NCBI GenBank assembly: GCA_021808105.1
Contig: JAKBCC010000005.1
Span: 1 to 50,077 of the forward strand
Direction: 5' to 3'
DNA: 50,077 nucleotides
Origin: Planctomycetota bacterium
GTDB lineage: Bacteria; Planctomycetota; Phycisphaerae; WQYP01
The notes below the pieces were generated by a model. It saw only the letters and a list, made by a program, of their open reading frames with translations. It made no database searches and had not been told where the DNA came from. Positions 22,870 through 30,605 of the stretch are shown piece by piece. Position 1 is the stretch's first letter; every line of letters starts with the position of its first letter. The position numbers and the translations under genes were made by a program.

Positions 22870-24048
22870 CTACGCCGTGATTTCGTGCAGGGCTTGAATC
22901 AGCAGATCAATATCTGCTGCGGTATTGAAATGTCCCGGGCTTACGCGCACGGTACCGTCAGGAAATGAATTCAGCATGCGATGGGCGTAGGGGGCGCAAT
23001 GTAAACCCGGGCGGACGGCGATGGTAAAGGATTCATCCAGAATGCCGCCAAGTTCCTGCGGGCTAAAGCCTTCCACGTTAAAGCATACCGTGCCCACACG
23101 GTGCGCAGCGGCATGGGGACCGGTGGGGCCATATATATTCAGCGCAGCAATATCCGCCACGCCATCGATAAATTGCTGCACCAGCGACTGTTCATGCGCC
23201 AGTGTCTTAGCGGGATCATGCTTAATAACAAATCCAGTCGCCGCCTCCAGGCCCGCGATACCCACGGTGTTGGGCGTGCCGCCTTCCAGCAGATACGGCA
23301 TGAGCCGCGGCTGCGTTGCCGTGGACGAATCACCGCCGGTGCCACCCTCACGGAAAGGTATCAAATCATCCATATTAACGGTGGTATGCAGATATAATCC
23401 GCCTGTGCCGGTGGGGCCTAAAAGCGATTTATGCCCCGGAAATGCCAACATATCTACATGCTCATGCGCAATGTTAATTGGAACGGTGCCAATAGTCTGG
23501 GCGGTATCCAGCAAAAACAATACGCCATGCTCGCGTGCGATTTTTCCAACCGCTGCCGCCGGTTGAATGGTGCCCAGCACATTGCTGGCGTGCGTGATGG
23601 CGATCATGCGGGTTTTGGAAGTGATGGCTTTTTTGACGTCTTCAGGATCGATCACGCCGGTTTGCGGCGAAAAGCCGATGCGGGTCAGCGTAATAAAACC
23701 GGCATCAGCCATGCTCTGCAACGGTCGGCTGACGCTGTTATGTTCCAGCATGGTGGTAATGACGTGATCGCCCGATCGCAGAATGCTTTTGAATGCGATA
23801 TTCAGCGCATCGGTGCAATTCATGGTGAAAATAAGCCGGTGGATATCCGTTCCGCCGATGAATTCGGTTAATTGTTTCCGCACGCGATCAAGCATTTTTT
23901 CCGCCGCGACAGCCATGCGATGGCCGGCCCGCCCCGGGTTGGCGGCATCATGCGCAAGAAAATCCGTCATGGCGGCGGCGACTTCCGGCGGCTTAGGCCA
24001 ACTGGTTGCCGCATTATCAAGATAGGTAACATCATTTTGTGATTTCAT
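22870..24048 (-). CDS. Cysteine desulfurase family protein
   Basis: MKSQNDVTYLDNAATSWPKPPEV...HDAANPGRAGHRMAV...DMLAFPGHKSLLGPTGTGGLYL. Confidence 0.92.
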   Translation of the reverse strand: MKSQNDVTYLDNAATSWPKPPEVAAAMTDFLAHDAANPGRAGHRMAVAAEKMLDRVRKQLTEFIGGTDIHRLIFTMNCTDALNIAFKSILRSGDHVITTMLEHNSVSRPLQSMADAGFITLTRIGFSPQTGVIDPEDVKKAITSKTRMIAITHASNVLGTIQPAAAVGKIAREHGVLFLLDTAQTIGTVPINIAHEHVDMLAFPGHKSLLGPTGTGGLYLHTTVNMDDLIPFREGGTGGDSSTATQPRLMPYLLEGGTPNTVGIAGLEAATGFVIKHDPAKTLAHEQSLVQQFIDGVADIAALNIYGPTGPHAAAHRVGTVCFNVEGFSPQELGGILDESFTIAVRPGLHCAPYAHRMLNSFPDGTVRVSPGHFNTAADIDLLIQALHEITA

Positions 24049-24100
24049 GGGTTGGTGACCTCGCATCCAATTTCTGAGAATAATTCCATCGCGCATACTG

Positions 24101-24184
24101 TTAGCCGCGTGTGCTTGCACCGCGCGTTCTTCGGTTGGCCTACCGCTTACTGCGTTTCCGCGCGGTGCAAGCACACGCGGCTAA
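24101..24184. repeat. Perfect 26-bp inverted repeat next to the RAYT 3' end
   Basis: ttagccgcgtgtgcttgcaccgcgcg (24101-24126) and its exact reverse complement (24159-24184). Confidence 0.97.
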
Positions 24185-24186
24185 AA

Positions 24187-24828
24187 TTAGGCCGGGGGTA
24201 TGTCCCGGCGTCCGTTAAACGGTACCACAAACGACCAACTTTGTGGTCGCAATCCGTCTTTAATCGGGTTATTTTCCACATAACGCACCGCGCGGGCAAT
24301 ATCCAATTCCGCATTGAGAAATACGCACCAGTGGCCACGCGCCCAAATCGAAGGGGCCGCCCGTTCCGGGACGTTATTGCTGGCGATCAGCCCTTCTCTG
24401 TGCAGTTGGTGCGTCGCTCGGCTTTTTAAGTGTGATACGATTCGGCCCACGGGGCGGGCGTGTCTGGCCAGAACCAAATGGGCATGGCGGGGCATCACAC
24501 TGCATGCATGAATCATATAACCGCCTTCTTTTGCCGCCCATCCAAACCCCGCGGCAATGGCCCGCGCCTGAAGTCCGGTGAATTTAACAGGTTCACGGGC
24601 TAACTGGGCTTTAGCGTTCTGCCGCGCCGCGACATCATGCGGATCAGACGCTCTGGATCGACCACCGGTAACGGGTGTGGCTCTTCCGGCAACACGGAAG
24701 AGGTCATCCGAACCAACATAATGGGAACCCGACCCGCGGGGATCATTTGGCAGCCAGAATCCATACGCACAGACGACAACGTGCCAGCCGATAATCACGG
24801 GCTTACTCTCCAATTTGGACCGCAGCAT
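24187..24828 (-). CDS. REP-associated tyrosine transposase (RAYT / Y1, IS200-like)
   Basis: MLRSKLESKPVIIGWHVVVCAYGFWLPNDPRGSGS...MIHACSVMPRHAHLVLARH...ARAVRYVENNPIKDGLRPQSW. HxH-type motif and Y1 C-terminal VENNP pattern; start chosen at 24828 inside ORF 24187..25035. Confidence 0.87.
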   Translation of the reverse strand: MLRSKLESKPVIIGWHVVVCAYGFWLPNDPRGSGSHYVGSDDLFRVAGRATPVTGGRSRASDPHDVAARQNAKAQLAREPVKFTGLQARAIAAGFGWAAKEGGYMIHACSVMPRHAHLVLARHARPVGRIVSHLKSRATHQLHREGLIASNNVPERAAPSIWARGHWCVFLNAELDIARAVRYVENNPIKDGLRPQSWSFVVPFNGRRDIPPA

Positions 24829-24839
24829 TCTCGACACAC

Positions 24840-24961
24840 CGCGCGGTGCAAGCACACGCGGCGAAAAAATGATCCTGATATCAAGCGTTCCTGCAACCGC
24901 CGTGAGTTTAAATTCACGCGGCATTTCATCACGTTTTAGCCGCGCGTGCTTGCACCGCGCG
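24840..24961. repeat. Second inverted-repeat pair of the same element, upstream of the RAYT gene
   Basis: cgcgcggtgcaagcacacgcggc (24840-24862) and ttagccgcgcgtgcttgcaccgcgcg (24936-24961). Confidence 0.95.
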
Positions 24962-24970
24962 GCCGCCGCA

Positions 24971-25456
24971 TCACACCGCTGCCAGTCCCTGCACGCGACG
25001 CCATGCGGAAAGCTGCCCGGCGTGGTAGCCCTCATGCCATGTGCCGTACATAAAAATGGTATGGCCGATGGTGGGGAATCGTTCGCGGCGGGCGGGATCG
25101 GGGTGCTCCTGGGCGAGTTGTTCCGGCTTCACGGTTTTGAGCCGCTCAATAATCTGCGCGCGAATCGCCGCCAGATGATCCAGATAAAACTGTTTGGGCT
25201 TATAAAGGGTTTTATCCGCACTGGGGGTGCTGCCCCCGCCGTAAATATCTTTCCAGGTTGGATCCAGGGCCGGAGCCGATCCGCCCAGCAGCGACAGAAA
25301 ATTTGCTTCCACCATCAGCAGGTGCCCCAGCACCCACGCCGGATGGTTGGTTTTGGGAGCCGGCTGCAACGTCATTTGATCATCTTTCAGATCAGCCACC
25401 AATTTAAGCGTGGCATTGCGCGTGTGCGTGATGGTGGCGATAAAAGCTTCGAGCAT
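24971..25456 (-). CDS. DinB-family protein
   Basis: MLEAFIATITHTRNATLKLVADLKDDQM...HPAWVLGHLLMVEANFLSLLGG...FMYGTWHEGYHAGQLSAWRR. Confidence 0.88.
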   Translation of the reverse strand: MLEAFIATITHTRNATLKLVADLKDDQMTLQPAPKTNHPAWVLGHLLMVEANFLSLLGGSAPALDPTWKDIYGGGSTPSADKTLYKPKQFYLDHLAAIRAQIIERLKTVKPEQLAQEHPDPARRERFPTIGHTIFMYGTWHEGYHAGQLSAWRRVQGLAAV

Positions 25457-25507
25457 GAAAAGAACTCCTGAAAAAACGTACCTCAAGACCAAGTTTCGTC
25501 CGCTGAT

Positions 25508-26602
25508 TCAGCTGCCGATATACTTGGCGTAAATCGCCTTGGCCACAGCGGCCTCGTGCGTGCCTTTAATAATAGCTCGGCCATCGGCAAAAAGCGTCAG
25601 TTCATATTCTTTCCGCCGCTCGCCCTGCCCTTCGCCAATAGCACATTTAAGCATAAATTTGTTAAAACTCGGTGTGCCCACCGCCCGCAAATTTTCCGCA
25701 ATGCGGTCAAAATCCACTTTGCCGCCCGAGGGCTGAGAAATTTGTACCGCATTTCGTCCGCATAAAGACGTAGTACTGGAACCGAATTTCCCGGACAAAT
25801 ACTCATAGTTGTGATGTTTGCACGCCGGGCAATCAGCAATTTCCCGTGCCCGTGAAACATTCAATTGCTGGAACCGGTTATCCCACAGGTCAAAGCTAAA
25901 AAGCCGCGTGCTGACCGCATCGGTATTGTCCGTCAGCAACTTCATGGCTTCCATGGCCTGCCAGCTTGCCACCACATTGACCGTCGGCCCCAGCACGCCC
26001 GCCGTATCACACGTCGGGTTCATTCCCGCCGGCGGTGAAGTTTCAAAAATGCAGCGCAGGCATGGGGTAATACCGGGACGGATCACCATGCCCAGGCCCA
26101 TGGCGCTGATGCACGCGCCATAAATCCACGGGATATTGAGTTTGATCGAAACATCATTGATCAAAAACCGTGTTTCAAAGTTATCCGTACCGTCCAGCAG
26201 CAGTTGCTTATCTTTGGCGTATTGTTCAATATTATTATGATTCACATCCGCCACCACGGCCTCCACCTGCACATCAGAATTGATGCCCGCGATTTTGCGC
26301 TGTGCCGCAATTGATTTCGGCAACTGATCTTTGATATCCTGCTGATCAAAAAGCACCTGCCGCTGCAAATTGTTCAACTCAATAAAGTCTCGGTCAATAA
26401 TGGTTATATGCCCGACGCCGGCCCGTGACAGCGTGTTGGCCAACACCGTGCCCAAGGCCCCGCAACCCACCATCAGCACCCGCGCCGCCTTCAGCTTCTT
26501 CTGCCCCTCTACCCCAATAGGTGCCCAAAGCATCTGCCGGTTATACCGCGCCAACGACGGATCCGCTTTTTCAAGTTCCTGTGCTAAATCTGATAACGCC
26601 AT
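25508..26602 (-). CDS. HesA/MoeB/ThiF family sulfur-carrier-activating E1-like enzyme
   Basis: RYNRQMLWAPIGVEGQKKLKAARVLMVGCGALGTVLANTLSRAGVGHITIIDRDFIELNNLQRQ; CLRC and CPAC zinc cysteines; SLCGRNAVQI C-terminal segment. Confidence 0.95.
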   Translation of the reverse strand: MALSDLAQELEKADPSLARYNRQMLWAPIGVEGQKKLKAARVLMVGCGALGTVLANTLSRAGVGHITIIDRDFIELNNLQRQVLFDQQDIKDQLPKSIAAQRKIAGINSDVQVEAVVADVNHNNIEQYAKDKQLLLDGTDNFETRFLINDVSIKLNIPWIYGACISAMGLGMVIRPGITPCLRCIFETSPPAGMNPTCDTAGVLGPTVNVVASWQAMEAMKLLTDNTDAVSTRLFSFDLWDNRFQQLNVSRAREIADCPACKHHNYEYLSGKFGSSTTSLCGRNAVQISQPSGGKVDFDRIAENLRAVGTPSFNKFMLKCAIGEGQGERRKEYELTLFADGRAIIKGTHEAAVAKAIYAKYIGS

Positions 26603-26604
26603 AT

Positions 26605-26859
26605 TTATCCTTCAACTACGCTGCCTTCAATCGGTTCCACCGTCACGCCCTGCTCCCGCAGAAACGTCAGTGCGGCGACTACATCCCGGCTTTCACCCTC
26701 AAACAATACTGCCATGATCCCGATTTCCGCAGTCACGCTGGCCTGCCGAATATCAAAACTCACAGTGGAAAACTGCCGCGCCATACGCCACAGCGCCGGC
26801 GTTTCCACCATCGCTTTACCGTTGAACGTCAGCCACACACGTTTGCTGGTTTTTGCCAT
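26605..26859 (-). CDS. NIL-domain protein
   Basis: 84 aa MAKTSKRVWLTFNGKAMVETPALWRMARQFSTVSFDIRQASVTAEIGIMAVLFEGESRDVVAALTFLREQGVTVEPIE matches the NIL fold pattern. Confidence 0.85.
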   Translation of the reverse strand: MAKTSKRVWLTFNGKAMVETPALWRMARQFSTVSFDIRQASVTAEIGIMAVLFEGESRDVVAALTFLREQGVTVEPIEGSVVEG

Positions 26860-26862
26860 GCT

Positions 26863-27138
26863 TTATCCTCCGGCAATGGCGGGTACGACACTGATATCAT
26901 CGCCATCCTTAACAGGGGTTTGCAGATTATTCAAAAAGCGGATGTCTTCATCATTGACATAGATATTCACAAAGCGATTCAGCTCGCCCGGCTGTTTATA
27001 CAGCCGCTTTTCCATGCCGCTGAATTGCCCGCACATATTTTTCAAGGCCTCATCCACCGTGCCCGCCTGCACCTCCACCATATCCGCACCATTCGTGACC
27101 GATCGCAGAGGCGTGGGAATTCTGATTTTTACTGCCAT
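26863..27138 (-). CDS. MoaD/ThiS-type ubiquitin-like sulfur carrier protein
   Basis: MAVKIRIPTPLRSVTNGADMVEVQAGTVDEALKNMCGQF...FVNIYVNDEDIRFLNNLQTPVKDGDDISVVPAIAGG: C-terminal GG required for thiocarboxylation. Confidence 0.93.
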   Translation of the reverse strand: MAVKIRIPTPLRSVTNGADMVEVQAGTVDEALKNMCGQFSGMEKRLYKQPGELNRFVNIYVNDEDIRFLNNLQTPVKDGDDISVVPAIAGG

Positions 27139-27197
27139 GATGTTCTCCATATTCCGTGCGGTGTTATCCGCGATTAATAATTTTTTCATTCCTTATT

Positions 27198-27226
27198 ACC
27201 ACCGGCATAAAGCCGGTGGCTCGCTA
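27198..27226. repeat. REP-like hairpin (accaccggcataaagccggtggct family)
   Basis: 'taccaccggcataaagccggtggctcgcta' hairpin; related hairpins at 18619, 30211 and 44739. Confidence 0.7.
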
Positions 27227-28498
27227 CACGCCTGCCGGAATCTTTGCCGATGTTAGGGTCGGTTGCGTCTGAAATGTGCTCATCAGCGCATCAAACGCAT
27301 CAAGTTTCGGAGCAATGGAGGTAGGCAGCGCCAACTGATCCACCACCACTTCCACGGTCTTTAATCCATTGCCCGTGATACACACACAGATGCTTTCATC
27401 CCGCGGAATCCGCCCGCTGTTAATTAACTTAATTGTCGCCGCCAGGGTGGTGCCGCCCGCAGGCTCAGTCCAGGTTCCTTCTGTGCGGGCCAGGAGTTTA
27501 ATGGCGTCGACAATTTCGGTGTCCGTCGCGTCTTCACCCCAGCCGCCGGATTCTTTGACCGCCTGTACCACATAAAAGCCATCCGCCGGATTGCCAATGG
27601 CGATGCTTTTGGCGATGGTTTTGGGCTTCTGCGGTTTGATCAGATCATGCCCGGCGCGAATCGCCTCCACCACGGGGTTGCATCCGGCTGCCTGCGCGGA
27701 ATAAATCTTGGGAGCGTTATCCGCCACCAGCCCCAGATCGATAAATTCCTTATATGCTTTATAAATCTTGGGCAAAATGGTCCCGCCTGCCGTCGGGCAT
27801 ACGGTGTGCTTGGGCAACCGCCAGCCTAACTGCTCGGCCACCTCGAAACCAAAGGTCTTGGCCCCTTCGGTATAAAAGGGCCGCAGATTCACGTTCACAA
27901 TCGCCCATTTGTATTTGTCAGCAATTTCTGAACACAGGCGATTAACATCATCATAATTACCGTTAATGCGCACCATGGTGGGGCCAAAAATCAGTGATCC
28001 CAGCACCTTCCCCTGCTCAAGATCATGCGGAATCATGACAAATGCCTTCAACCCCGCAACCGCCGCGTGCGCGGCCACGCTGTTGGCTAAATTACCCGTA
28101 CTGGCGCAGCCCACGGTGTCATAGCCTAATTCAATGGCTTTGGTAATCGCCACCGACACCACACGCTCTTTATAGCTCCACGTGGGATAATTAGCCGAGT
28201 CATCTTTAATGTATAACTCTTTAACTCCCAGAACTTTTTCCAGATTGTGCGCCCGGCGCAAGGGGGTGCAGCCGGAATATAATCCGGCTTTCGGCTCGCC
28301 ATCAATGGGCAGTAAATCGCGGTAGCGCCACAAATTGCGCGGTTTATTCTCTATGGATTCGCGCGTGACCTTGCCGCGCATGGCCGCGTAATCATATTGA
28401 ACCTCCAGCGGCCCAAAACATACTTCGCACACGTGCACGCCTTTTTGCGGGTATTTTTCCCCGCATTCTCGGCACTTGAGTCCCAGCACATACGACAT
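27224..28498 (-). CDS. thrC: Threonine synthase / threonine-synthase-like PLP enzyme with N-terminal zinc-ribbon
   Basis: LKCRECGEKYPQKGVHVCEVCFGPLEVQYDY...ELYIKDDSANYPTWSYKERVVSVAI...GCASTGNLANSVAAHAAVAGLKAFVMIP. Symbol reflects family; actual reaction questioned in findings. Confidence 0.9.
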   Translation of the reverse strand: MSYVLGLKCRECGEKYPQKGVHVCEVCFGPLEVQYDYAAMRGKVTRESIENKPRNLWRYRDLLPIDGEPKAGLYSGCTPLRRAHNLEKVLGVKELYIKDDSANYPTWSYKERVVSVAITKAIELGYDTVGCASTGNLANSVAAHAAVAGLKAFVMIPHDLEQGKVLGSLIFGPTMVRINGNYDDVNRLCSEIADKYKWAIVNVNLRPFYTEGAKTFGFEVAEQLGWRLPKHTVCPTAGGTILPKIYKAYKEFIDLGLVADNAPKIYSAQAAGCNPVVEAIRAGHDLIKPQKPKTIAKSIAIGNPADGFYVVQAVKESGGWGEDATDTEIVDAIKLLARTEGTWTEPAGGTTLAATIKLINSGRIPRDESICVCITGNGLKTVEVVVDQLALPTSIAPKLDAFDALMSTFQTQPTLTSAKIPAGV

Positions 28499-28548
28499 TT
28501 ACAACCTCCGCCCGGCTACACCAGCATGGTGATTGATCCGGAAAATAA

Positions 28549-28606
28549 CGCGGCCTCTTATCAGGATGCACCGTTTTAGGATGCTGATTCCCGATAAGAG
28601 GCCGCG
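28549..28606 (-). terminator. Riboswitch expression-platform terminator
   Basis: RNA sense: CGCGGCCTCTTATC-ggg...cctGATAAGAGGCCGCG followed by TTATTTT. Confidence 0.9.
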
Positions 28607-28632
28607 CGATAAAACCAAAAGAGACGCTGATC

Positions 28633-28771
28633 CGCTTATCTATCCCCAGGTTCGCCGGAAATTCCGGCAAGCGGGAGGGAATTAGCACCCGCTTCTTACA
28701 CCATAAAAGGCGTAAAGATGGGTTGCTGTGCCGTCAACGGGCCCGTCCCTCAGGCACTCTTGATAAGAGCC
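28633..28771 (-). promoter_or_regulatory. SAM-I (S-box) riboswitch aptamer
   Basis: Minus-strand: ggcTCTTATCaAGAGtgcctgAGGGAcgGGCCCgttgacggcacaGCAACC...agcggGTGCTAAtTCCctcccgct...gGATAAGcgg. P1 CTTATC/GATAAG and conserved S-box core motifs are all present in order. Confidence 0.95.
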
Positions 28772-28893
28772 TTATTCAATTGTCACCGCAAATAGTAGAA
28801 TCCTTAACCATTATTGTCAACAGCGCTGCGCAACCATTTGTTGGCAATTACCCTCAATACAACTACAATCCCACTTCATTGACGGAGGTTCAC

Positions 28894-30189
28894 ATGCCCC
28901 AGGAAATCTCGTCTTCATTGCCCGAACTTGGCAACGCTAGCCCGTTGTATGACGCGCCCGATTCCACCGCCGGCATGACCCTGACGCGCGGGTTGTTGCT
29001 GGTTCTGATATGGATTATTTTGGGCGCAGCCATTATTTCAGCTCTGGTGGTGTTCGCCACAATCCGGCACAGCGGCGTTCCCCGCCCCATCGCCCTTTTA
29101 GTACCTCTGGGAATTGTGGGAGTGGCATTATTTGGCGTCCTGATTTATCTGGCATTAGCGGTGATTATCCGCGGGCAGCTTTTGCTGTTCAAATACGCCC
29201 AACTTCTGGGCCGCAGCACGCAGCAGCAGGTGCAAATTTCCACCAATATGGAGCGGCACCTGCTGCACCTGCGAACCGCCCTGGATAAGATGGCGTCTGC
29301 CTCGTCCATTGCGCCGTCTCCTTCACCGCAAAACACACCCGGACCCATGCCGGACTCCCAAGCTGTTGGCGTTGTGACTCTGCCTGCCGGATCGCCGGAT
29401 GCTTTTCCGCAAATCCTGGAACTTCTAACGCAGCTGCGCGATGCCGCTTTGCTGACTGAAACCCAGCGCCGGCAATGGGCGGCGGGTCTGCTGGAAAAGC
29501 GCAAGGCCGTGCTGACTGCGGAAGTTCAAGCCGCCATCCAGGGTGAACAATGGAACGCCGCAGGCAATTTGATCGAAAAAATCCGGGAGAATCTTCCAGG
29601 TGATCCACTGGTCGATACGCTCCGGGATGACCTGGCCCGTCAGCGCGCCGAAAAAGTTCAGCAGGATTTGACGCTGGCGCGTGAAAACGTGCAGCACTAC
29701 ATGGCCATCAACGCCTGGGATCAGGTCCAGCAAATAACCGATCCTCTCGACGCCCGTTATCCCGACGAGCCGGCCATTCAGGAATTGCTCAATCAGGTTC
29801 GGTATGAATACCATGCCTGGCGACGGGATGCTCTGACCATGCTGCTTAGCGACTATAAAGATTCAGTGGATCATCGCCAATGGGTTCGCGCCGGCAGTTT
29901 GGCCCAACAGATTCTGGAGCGCTACCCGGAAGAAAAGCTGGCGGAAAAAATCCGCACCGATTTAACCACCTTGCGGCAAAACGCGGATATTCAGACCCGC
30001 CATGAACTCGAAACGCAATACGCCGATCTTATCAAACGCCAGCGGCATGAAGAAGCCTTCGCCATTGCCCAACGCGTACTGGACGTATACCCCGAATCCG
30101 CCACCGCCCGGGAAATGCAGAAGCATCTGCCAAAACTCACAGAAATTATCAAAAAGGAAAAAGCCCGCAAGCAACCCGCCATCCATTAA
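28894..30189 (+). CDS. Hypothetical membrane protein with C-terminal helical/TPR-like repeats
   Basis: RBS 'acggaggttcac' before MPQEISSSLPEL; two TM segments then repeated helical segments (MAINAWDQVQQITDPLDARYPDEPAIQELLNQV...). Confidence 0.7.
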   Translation: MPQEISSSLPELGNASPLYDAPDSTAGMTLTRGLLLVLIWIILGAAIISALVVFATIRHSGVPRPIALLVPLGIVGVALFGVLIYLALAVIIRGQLLLFKYAQLLGRSTQQQVQISTNMERHLLHLRTALDKMASASSIAPSPSPQNTPGPMPDSQAVGVVTLPAGSPDAFPQILELLTQLRDAALLTETQRRQWAAGLLEKRKAVLTAEVQAAIQGEQWNAAGNLIEKIRENLPGDPLVDTLRDDLARQRAEKVQQDLTLARENVQHYMAINAWDQVQQITDPLDARYPDEPAIQELLNQVRYEYHAWRRDALTMLLSDYKDSVDHRQWVRAGSLAQQILERYPEEKLAEKIRTDLTTLRQNADIQTRHELETQYADLIKRQRHEEAFAIAQRVLDVYPESATAREMQKHLPKLTEIIKKEKARKQPAIH

Positions 30190-30530: not shown

Positions 30531-30605
30531 CGGGGCGTAGCTCAGCCTGGCTAGAGCGCCTGGTTTGGGACCAGGAAGTCGCAGGTTCAAATCCTGTCGC
30601 CCCGA
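30531..30605 (+). tRNA. tRNA-Pro (anticodon TGG)
   Basis: CGGGGCG acceptor pairs with CGCCCCG; cctgg-TTTGGGA-ccagg anticodon arm; gcaggTTCAAATcctgt T-arm. Confidence 0.97.

Follow-up and report, generated by a model that had tools for sequence, protein, structure and literature searches.

A SAM-I riboswitch upstream of a threonine synthase paralogue points to a probable thiocarboxylate-dependent route to homocysteine

The operon described here lies behind a SAM-I riboswitch in a 50,077-nucleotide stretch of DNA from a Planctomycetota bacterium (the whole stretch is called the window in the following), and it probably encodes a SAM-repressed pathway for homocysteine, the precursor of methionine. 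Its first gene codes for a paralogue of threonine synthase, termed ThrCL, which we regard as a candidate homocysteine synthase that depends on a protein thiocarboxylate and likely acts on O-phosphohomoserine. Homocysteine formation is the step by which sulfur enters methionine and SAM. With somewhat less confidence, we also favor the broader view that ThrCL is a widespread fold-type II homocysteine synthase that uses a CysO-like thiocarboxylate and replaces MetB/MetY in many phyla, that it is switched by SAM-I in several of them, and that it fills the missing step in Aquificales and other lineages that have no known pathway.

The leader RNA and its control

A complete SAM-I (S-box) riboswitch aptamer is found on the minus strand at 28633..28769. 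In the search of the window, the covariance model RF00162 matches it over its full length (model positions 1-108) with 70.7 bits and an E-value of 1.3e-14, the gathering score being 44.4. The class assignment of a preliminary description, which had been made from core motifs in the letters alone, is thereby confirmed, and all motifs quoted in it are present in the order given there. Helix P1 is formed by CTCTTATC (28769-28762) and GATAAGCG (28640-28633) of the minus strand. An intrinsic terminator hairpin (28548..28607, minus strand) with a predicted stability of -40.8 kcal/mol follows, and its tail TATTTTC occupies 28547-28541. The hairpin was not picked up by the terminator rule of the scanner, which is restricted to loops of 3-8; its loop is longer.

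The 5' arm of the terminator contains CTTATC, the exact complement of GATAAG in the 3' strand of P1. As indicated by the folding of truncated transcripts, an alternative antiterminator (28593..28641, minus strand) may form, in which 28641-28625, that is the P1 3' strand and the next bases, pairs with 28608-28593 of the terminator 5' arm. This duplex is predicted at -14.4 kcal/mol and belongs to the minimum free energy structure of transcripts that end before the terminator 3' arm. The mutually exclusive pairing of P1 and terminator, which had been proposed from the CTTATC and GATAAG motifs, holds for the window and is seen again in its relatives: a terminator arm complementary to the leader's own P1 3' strand occurs in L030, L034, L040, L038, L029, L036, L042 and L087, the last of which lies outside the class. 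This complementarity is kept even where the P1 sequence differs, as in L030, where GATAAGAA pairs with UUCUUAUC. In the relatives of family f1, several hairpins were missed or misplaced by the automatic terminator finder, and the leaders were judged by eye; most show a CTCTTATC...GATAAGAGG hairpin, while in L016, L017 and L019 CTCTTATC is kept and a clear terminator was not seen on this inspection.

As terminator and antiterminator compete for the P1 3' strand and the terminator 5' arm, also in the relatives, the expression platform is by its architecture a transcription-attenuating SAM-OFF switch. With abundant SAM, the aptamer would bind its ligand and close P1, leaving the terminator free to fold and to end transcription. 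At low SAM, the 3' strand of P1 would instead pair with the 5' arm of the terminator, and transcription would continue into the operon. The putative promoter of this transcript is a sigma-70-like TTGACA-17-TACTAT element at 28792..28820 (minus strand) with 10/12 consensus matches. A promoter scan found no minus-strand promoter between the hairpin and the start codon at 28498, a region in which such an element had been named as an argument against the switch. Besides the window switch, no RF00162 match was found in the host genome, the assembly of which is 94.6% complete.

On the other strand, a divergent promoter (TTGGCA-17-TACAAT, 28841-28869) faces the gene of a TPR-like protein (28723-30189, plus strand), whose listed TTG start falls within the riboswitch and is probably too early. 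A tRNA gene is located close to the operon at 30531-30605 (plus strand; RF00005, 67.4 bits).

The genes of the operon

ThrCL (27224..28498, minus strand) has 424 aa and is a fold-type II PLP enzyme of the PALP family, in which K110 is the PLP lysine by homology. It is followed on the same strand by the gene of a ThiS/MoaD/CysO-like sulfur carrier (26863..27135) with 90 aa from the conserved start, the longest open reading frame beginning at 27189. This carrier ends in AIAGG, it is also SAMP1-like, and among proteins of known structure it matches best to 4n6e_B and to the CysO protein of Mycobacterium tuberculosis, 3dwg_C. The next two minus-strand genes code for a NIL-domain protein of 84 aa (26605..26859; PF09383), which is kept in the operons of relatives, and for a ThiF/MoeB E1-like adenylyltransferase of 364 aa (25508..26602; PF00899, NF009123). 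Three parts of a thiocarboxylate system are encoded together, namely a Gly-Gly-ended carrier of the ThiS/MoaD fold, an E1-like activator and a PLP-dependent acceptor enzyme, ThrCL. A JAB/JAMM protease was not found within this operon; JAB genes are present in the operons of other phyla (L091, L110).

Further downstream on the minus strand, a DinB-superfamily protein of 173 aa (24971..25492; PF12867), which is an operon member in related families, and a cysteine desulfurase family protein (22870..24174; TIGR01977) are separated by the gene of a REP-associated tyrosine transposase (24187-25035). Since DinB and desulfurase genes occur without a transposase between them in family f18 and in other f1 genomes, the transposase looks like an insertion into the operon, and the desulfurase probably belongs to the transcription unit as the sulfur donor. 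The desulfurase gene is contiguous with the operon in L043, L057 and L058 and lies near it in L045 and L069. The carrier, its E1 and the desulfurase support the earlier suggestion that the operon makes or handles sulfur amino acids.

Proposed pathway

In the pathway that we consider most probable, ThiF would adenylate the C-terminal GG of the CysO-like carrier, and the cysteine desulfurase would provide the sulfur that converts it to a thiocarboxylate. Enzymes of this kind are supplied by protein thiocarboxylates in M. tuberculosis, where CysM works with CysO, and in the methionine pathway of Wolinella (both cited in PMC6225789). Homoserine dehydrogenase and a kinase of the TIGR02535 type would supply O-phosphohomoserine, the most likely activated homoserine for ThrCL.

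Threonine synthase removes the γ-phosphate of its substrate and adds water at the β-carbon. A thiocarboxylate or sulfide that adds at the γ-carbon of a threonine-synthase-type intermediate would give homocysteine, and ThrCL may thus place the carrier sulfur onto the γ-carbon instead of water onto the β-carbon. For the NIL protein, an accessory or methionine-sensing function is probable, and a role in sensing or in sulfur relay is a guess. NIL domains occur in methionine ABC transporters. They are also part of the DUF39 homocysteine pathway (PMC5764234).

ThrCL and the canonical threonine synthase

The preliminary description had called the first gene a threonine synthase, and in so far as a PF00291/TIGR00260 protein starts at 28498 this holds; the protein is, however, a distinct paralogue, and the canonical thrC lies elsewhere in the genome. 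It could nevertheless be an ordinary threonine synthase, with the SAM switch tuning the threonine branch of the aspartate pathway. Indeed, ThrCL scores 267.2 bits against the TIGR00260 thrC model (cut-off 167.1), and the proteins of known structure that are closest to it are threonine synthases. The closest curated model is PRK08197 (NF006050), for which it falls narrowly below the cut-off (297.6 vs 303 bits).

The substrate site argues against this reading. The catalytic lysine motif is kept and K110 is invariant, but the canonical substrate-site motifs NS.NP.R.EGQKT and GSFKDRGM are absent. The ThrCL versions are VN[VI]N[ILM]RP[FY]Y[AT]EG[SA]KT and S[FY]K[DE]RVV, with key columns that are invariant or nearly so among 94 sequences. 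In Thermus ThrC numbering, the replacements T88L, S155N, N157R and R160Y are each found in 93 or 94 of the 94 ThrCL sequences. A tree of 118 sequences places every one of these 94 in a single clade with a long stem and an SH-like support of 0.95, separate from canonical ThrC, from the threonine synthases of the PDB and from PRK08197-like paralogues. In Nitrospirota, ThrCL and a canonical thrC stand side by side in the same operon, and hence ThrCL is not the threonine synthase there. A cell would also seem to gain little from repressing threonine synthesis at high SAM; in plants, SAM activates threonine synthase. Finally, ThiS/ThiF and the loss of MetY described below would be left unexplained, and we therefore think that an ordinary threonine synthase is unlikely to be encoded here. 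More distant PALP proteins of the class (L048-L053, 32-38% identity) were considered as ThrCL and rejected, as they fall outside the ThrCL clade and as both ThiS and a riboswitch are missing from their surroundings.

Some of the swapped positions are presumably the phosphate-holding residues of threonine synthase. As several residues of the substrate pocket have changed, O-phosphohomoserine is not certain as the ThrCL substrate, and the altered pocket could reflect either a new grip on this compound, with R206 being invariant in ThrCL, or another leaving group. Alternatively, ThrCL could be an enzyme that forms homocysteine with free sulfide, or from another activated homoserine (acetyl or succinyl), with ThiS/ThiF serving a different purpose such as tRNA thiolation. 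The exchange of what we take to be the phosphate site speaks for such an enzyme, as do those ThrCL genes that have no neighboring ThiS. On the other side, no MetX was found in the host genome, the most constant neighbor of ThrCL is ThiS, followed by NIL and ThiF, the carrier is CysO-like, and this operon type also includes a ThiS-fused cysteine synthase (L080). This variant consequently has little probability in our view.

Methionine and threonine genes of the host

The host assembly of 3.86 Mb encodes four PALP proteins, which are cysK, trpB, the canonical thrC and ThrCL. No known homocysteine-forming enzyme was found in searches for PF01053, DUF39 and MetX: for the MetB/MetC/MetY family (PF01053) there is no true member, the best match reaching 28.1 bits over a part of the profile only, and DUF39 (HcyBio, PF01837) and MetX gave no match. 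A partial PF01053 match within the window (C172:23494-23811) is the cysteine desulfurase. The genome does contain a homoserine dehydrogenase gene, directly followed by a gene of the TIGR02535 "proposed homoserine kinase" type (C205; L146:1393-1857, partial at the end of the stretch). Judged from these two genes, the host can make homoserine and probably also O-phosphohomoserine.

The same inventory bears on the reading that the operon is mainly a cysteine-making system of the CysO/CysM type with ThrCL acting on O-phosphoserine. The CysO-like carrier and the cysteine synthases found in many such operons are compatible with it. The host possesses cysK, however, the control is by SAM and not by cysteine, and the neighbors belong to the homoserine pathway. 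Many operons also contain a separate CysK/M beside ThrCL, which indicates that ThrCL is not that enzyme. Among the readings considered, a cysteine system seems to us very improbable, and the homocysteine pathway remains the preferred one.

ThrCL within the class

Searches for ThrCL, PF01053 and RF00162 were compared across 151 genomes of the class, in which proteins of at least 55% identity were taken as ThrCL orthologues. These occur in 43 of the genomes. A true PF01053 member is missing in 33 of the 43 genomes with ThrCL and in 4 of the 108 genomes without it (Fisher p 4e-20, a value not corrected for shared ancestry). When family f6 is considered by itself, it is missing in 12/17 genomes with and in 0/5 genomes without ThrCL (p 0.01). 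Both ThrCL and a PF01053 enzyme are present in 10 of the 43 genomes. Draft genomes underlie these comparisons.

RF00162 matches shortly upstream of ThrCL and on the same strand in 42 of the 43 genomes, and so homologous operons do carry the switch, a check that had been proposed for this DNA; the exception, G061, has an incomplete ThrCL match. Eleven genomes without ThrCL (G020, G029, G037, G050, G070, G076, G082, G106, G112, G124, G136) have a SAM-I riboswitch upstream of a PF01053 gene instead, and the PF01053 match in these spans about 1250 bases, the length class of MetY. It thus appears that the regulated slot holds either MetY or ThrCL. The ThiS gene adjoins ThrCL or lies one or two genes beyond, and its product ends in AIAGG.

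Two genomes (G103, G121) contain two ThrCL copies each, every copy with its own SAM-I riboswitch. In G060, a second RF00162 match is found away from ThrCL (G060:C1:71292-71394, minus strand).

ThrCL in other phyla

A scan with one genome per species yielded at least 594 related stretches, the best 80 of which show 53-96% identity. Among the matches listed, ThrCL spreads over more than 10 phyla. It was found in Planctomycetota, Binatota, Acidobacteriota, Omnitrophota, Nitrospirota, Nitrospinota, Mariprofundus, Rokubacteria/Methylomirabilota, Poribacteria, Verrucomicrobiota, Elusimicrobia, Margulisiibacteriota and Hydrogenobacter. RF00162 matched upstream of the gene or operon in all 11 loci tested from several phyla, which had been preselected by a motif search.

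The commonest neighbors on the same strand are ThiS, NIL, ThiF and cysteine synthase (CysK/M). Sets of further neighbors vary and include canonical thrC, TusA, sulfite reductase (also TusA-fused), JAB peptidase, PAPS reductase and ATP sulfurylase, and on the homoserine side homoserine dehydrogenase, aspartate kinase and TIGR02535 (555 bits, above the cut-off). The cysteine synthase at L080:5659-6759 possesses an N-terminal ThiS domain, that is a built-in sulfur carrier. TIGR02535 is found in ThrCL operons of Nitrospirota (L133:10025-11281), and together with its position directly after the homoserine dehydrogenase of the host this supports the assignment as a homoserine kinase.

In Acidobacteria, Poribacteria and Hydrogenobacter, ThiS mostly does not adjoin ThrCL (L114, L125, L126 and L105; L094 and L124; L140, respectively), though those genomes that were tested do encode ThiS-family proteins. 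Several of the acidobacterial ThrCL copies stand beside homoserine dehydrogenase or aspartate kinase, and some have a SAM-I switch. A true PF01053 member is missing in 9 of 20 named ThrCL-containing genomes, which are Hydrogenobacter, Geothermocultor, five Nitrospirota, Mariprofundus and one deltaproteobacterium; DUF39 is likewise absent from eight of these nine and present in Geothermocultor only. The other 11 have both ThrCL and a PF01053 enzyme, and the function of ThrCL could therefore differ among genomes.

Relation to known systems

The full aptamer, the exclusive pairing of P1 and terminator and a methionine-related operon downstream are as in other SAM-I riboswitches, whereas no threonine synthase paralogue was found among the targets reported in the open-access literature. 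ThrCL itself shares with ThrC (TIGR00260, PRK08197) the fold, the PLP lysine motif and an N-terminal cysteine-rich stretch as in PRK08197-type proteins, but differs in its swapped substrate-site residues, in forming its own clade and in coexisting with a canonical thrC.

The pathway of Wolinella succinogenes reportedly consists of HcyS, HcyF and HcyD with MetY. As proposed here, a sulfur carrier and an E1-like activator feed homocysteine formation in that organism; the PLP enzyme there is the fold-type I MetY and here the fold-type II ThrCL, and in our case no MetX was found in the genome and no JAB protease in the window operon. Protein-thiocarboxylate-dependent methionine synthesis in W. succinogenes is ascribed to Krishnamoorthy and Begley 2011 in the passage of PMC6225789 that cites it. 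The CysO/CysM/Mec+ system of M. tuberculosis resembles the operon in the carrier (3dwg_C), in the fold-type II PLP partner, in the JAB proteins of other phyla's ThrCL operons and, by analogy, in a phosphorylated amino-acid substrate. The partner here belongs to the threonine synthase and not to the cysteine synthase branch, and the proposed product is homocysteine. The pathway of DUF39, NIL-ferredoxin and COG2122 likewise involves a NIL-domain protein, but the host has no DUF39, and its NIL protein stands alone beside ThiS, ThiF and the PLP enzyme.

Implications

No earlier report of the ThrCL system or of a SAM-I-controlled threonine synthase paralogue was found in the open-access literature, subscription papers and preprints being outside the search. 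Operons that combine ThiS, JAB and E1 genes with those of cysteine synthase and O-acetylhomoserine sulfhydrylase were listed by Iyer et al. 2006 (PMC1779556), with no threonine synthase partner among them. Homoserine kinase has been noted as missing for Bacteroides (PMC5764234, PMC7311316), a question on which the genomic context of TIGR02535 bears. Price et al. 2018 (PMC5764234) concluded that at least one homocysteine pathway is still undiscovered and named Aquifex aeolicus, Pyrolobus and Acidimicrobium in this respect.

Our genomic comparison suggests that the ThrCL gene set is an unrecognised and widespread bacterial route to homocysteine. As ThrCL is present in Hydrogenobacter, a member of the Aquificales, which lacks a PF01053 enzyme and DUF39, the question of the missing pathway becomes testable with one gene. 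If the proposed function is true, many genes of Planctomycetota, Nitrospirota, Omnitrophota, Acidobacteriota, Mariprofundus and other bacteria that presently are likely listed as thrC carry the wrong annotation, and their hosts would be wrongly called methionine auxotrophs.
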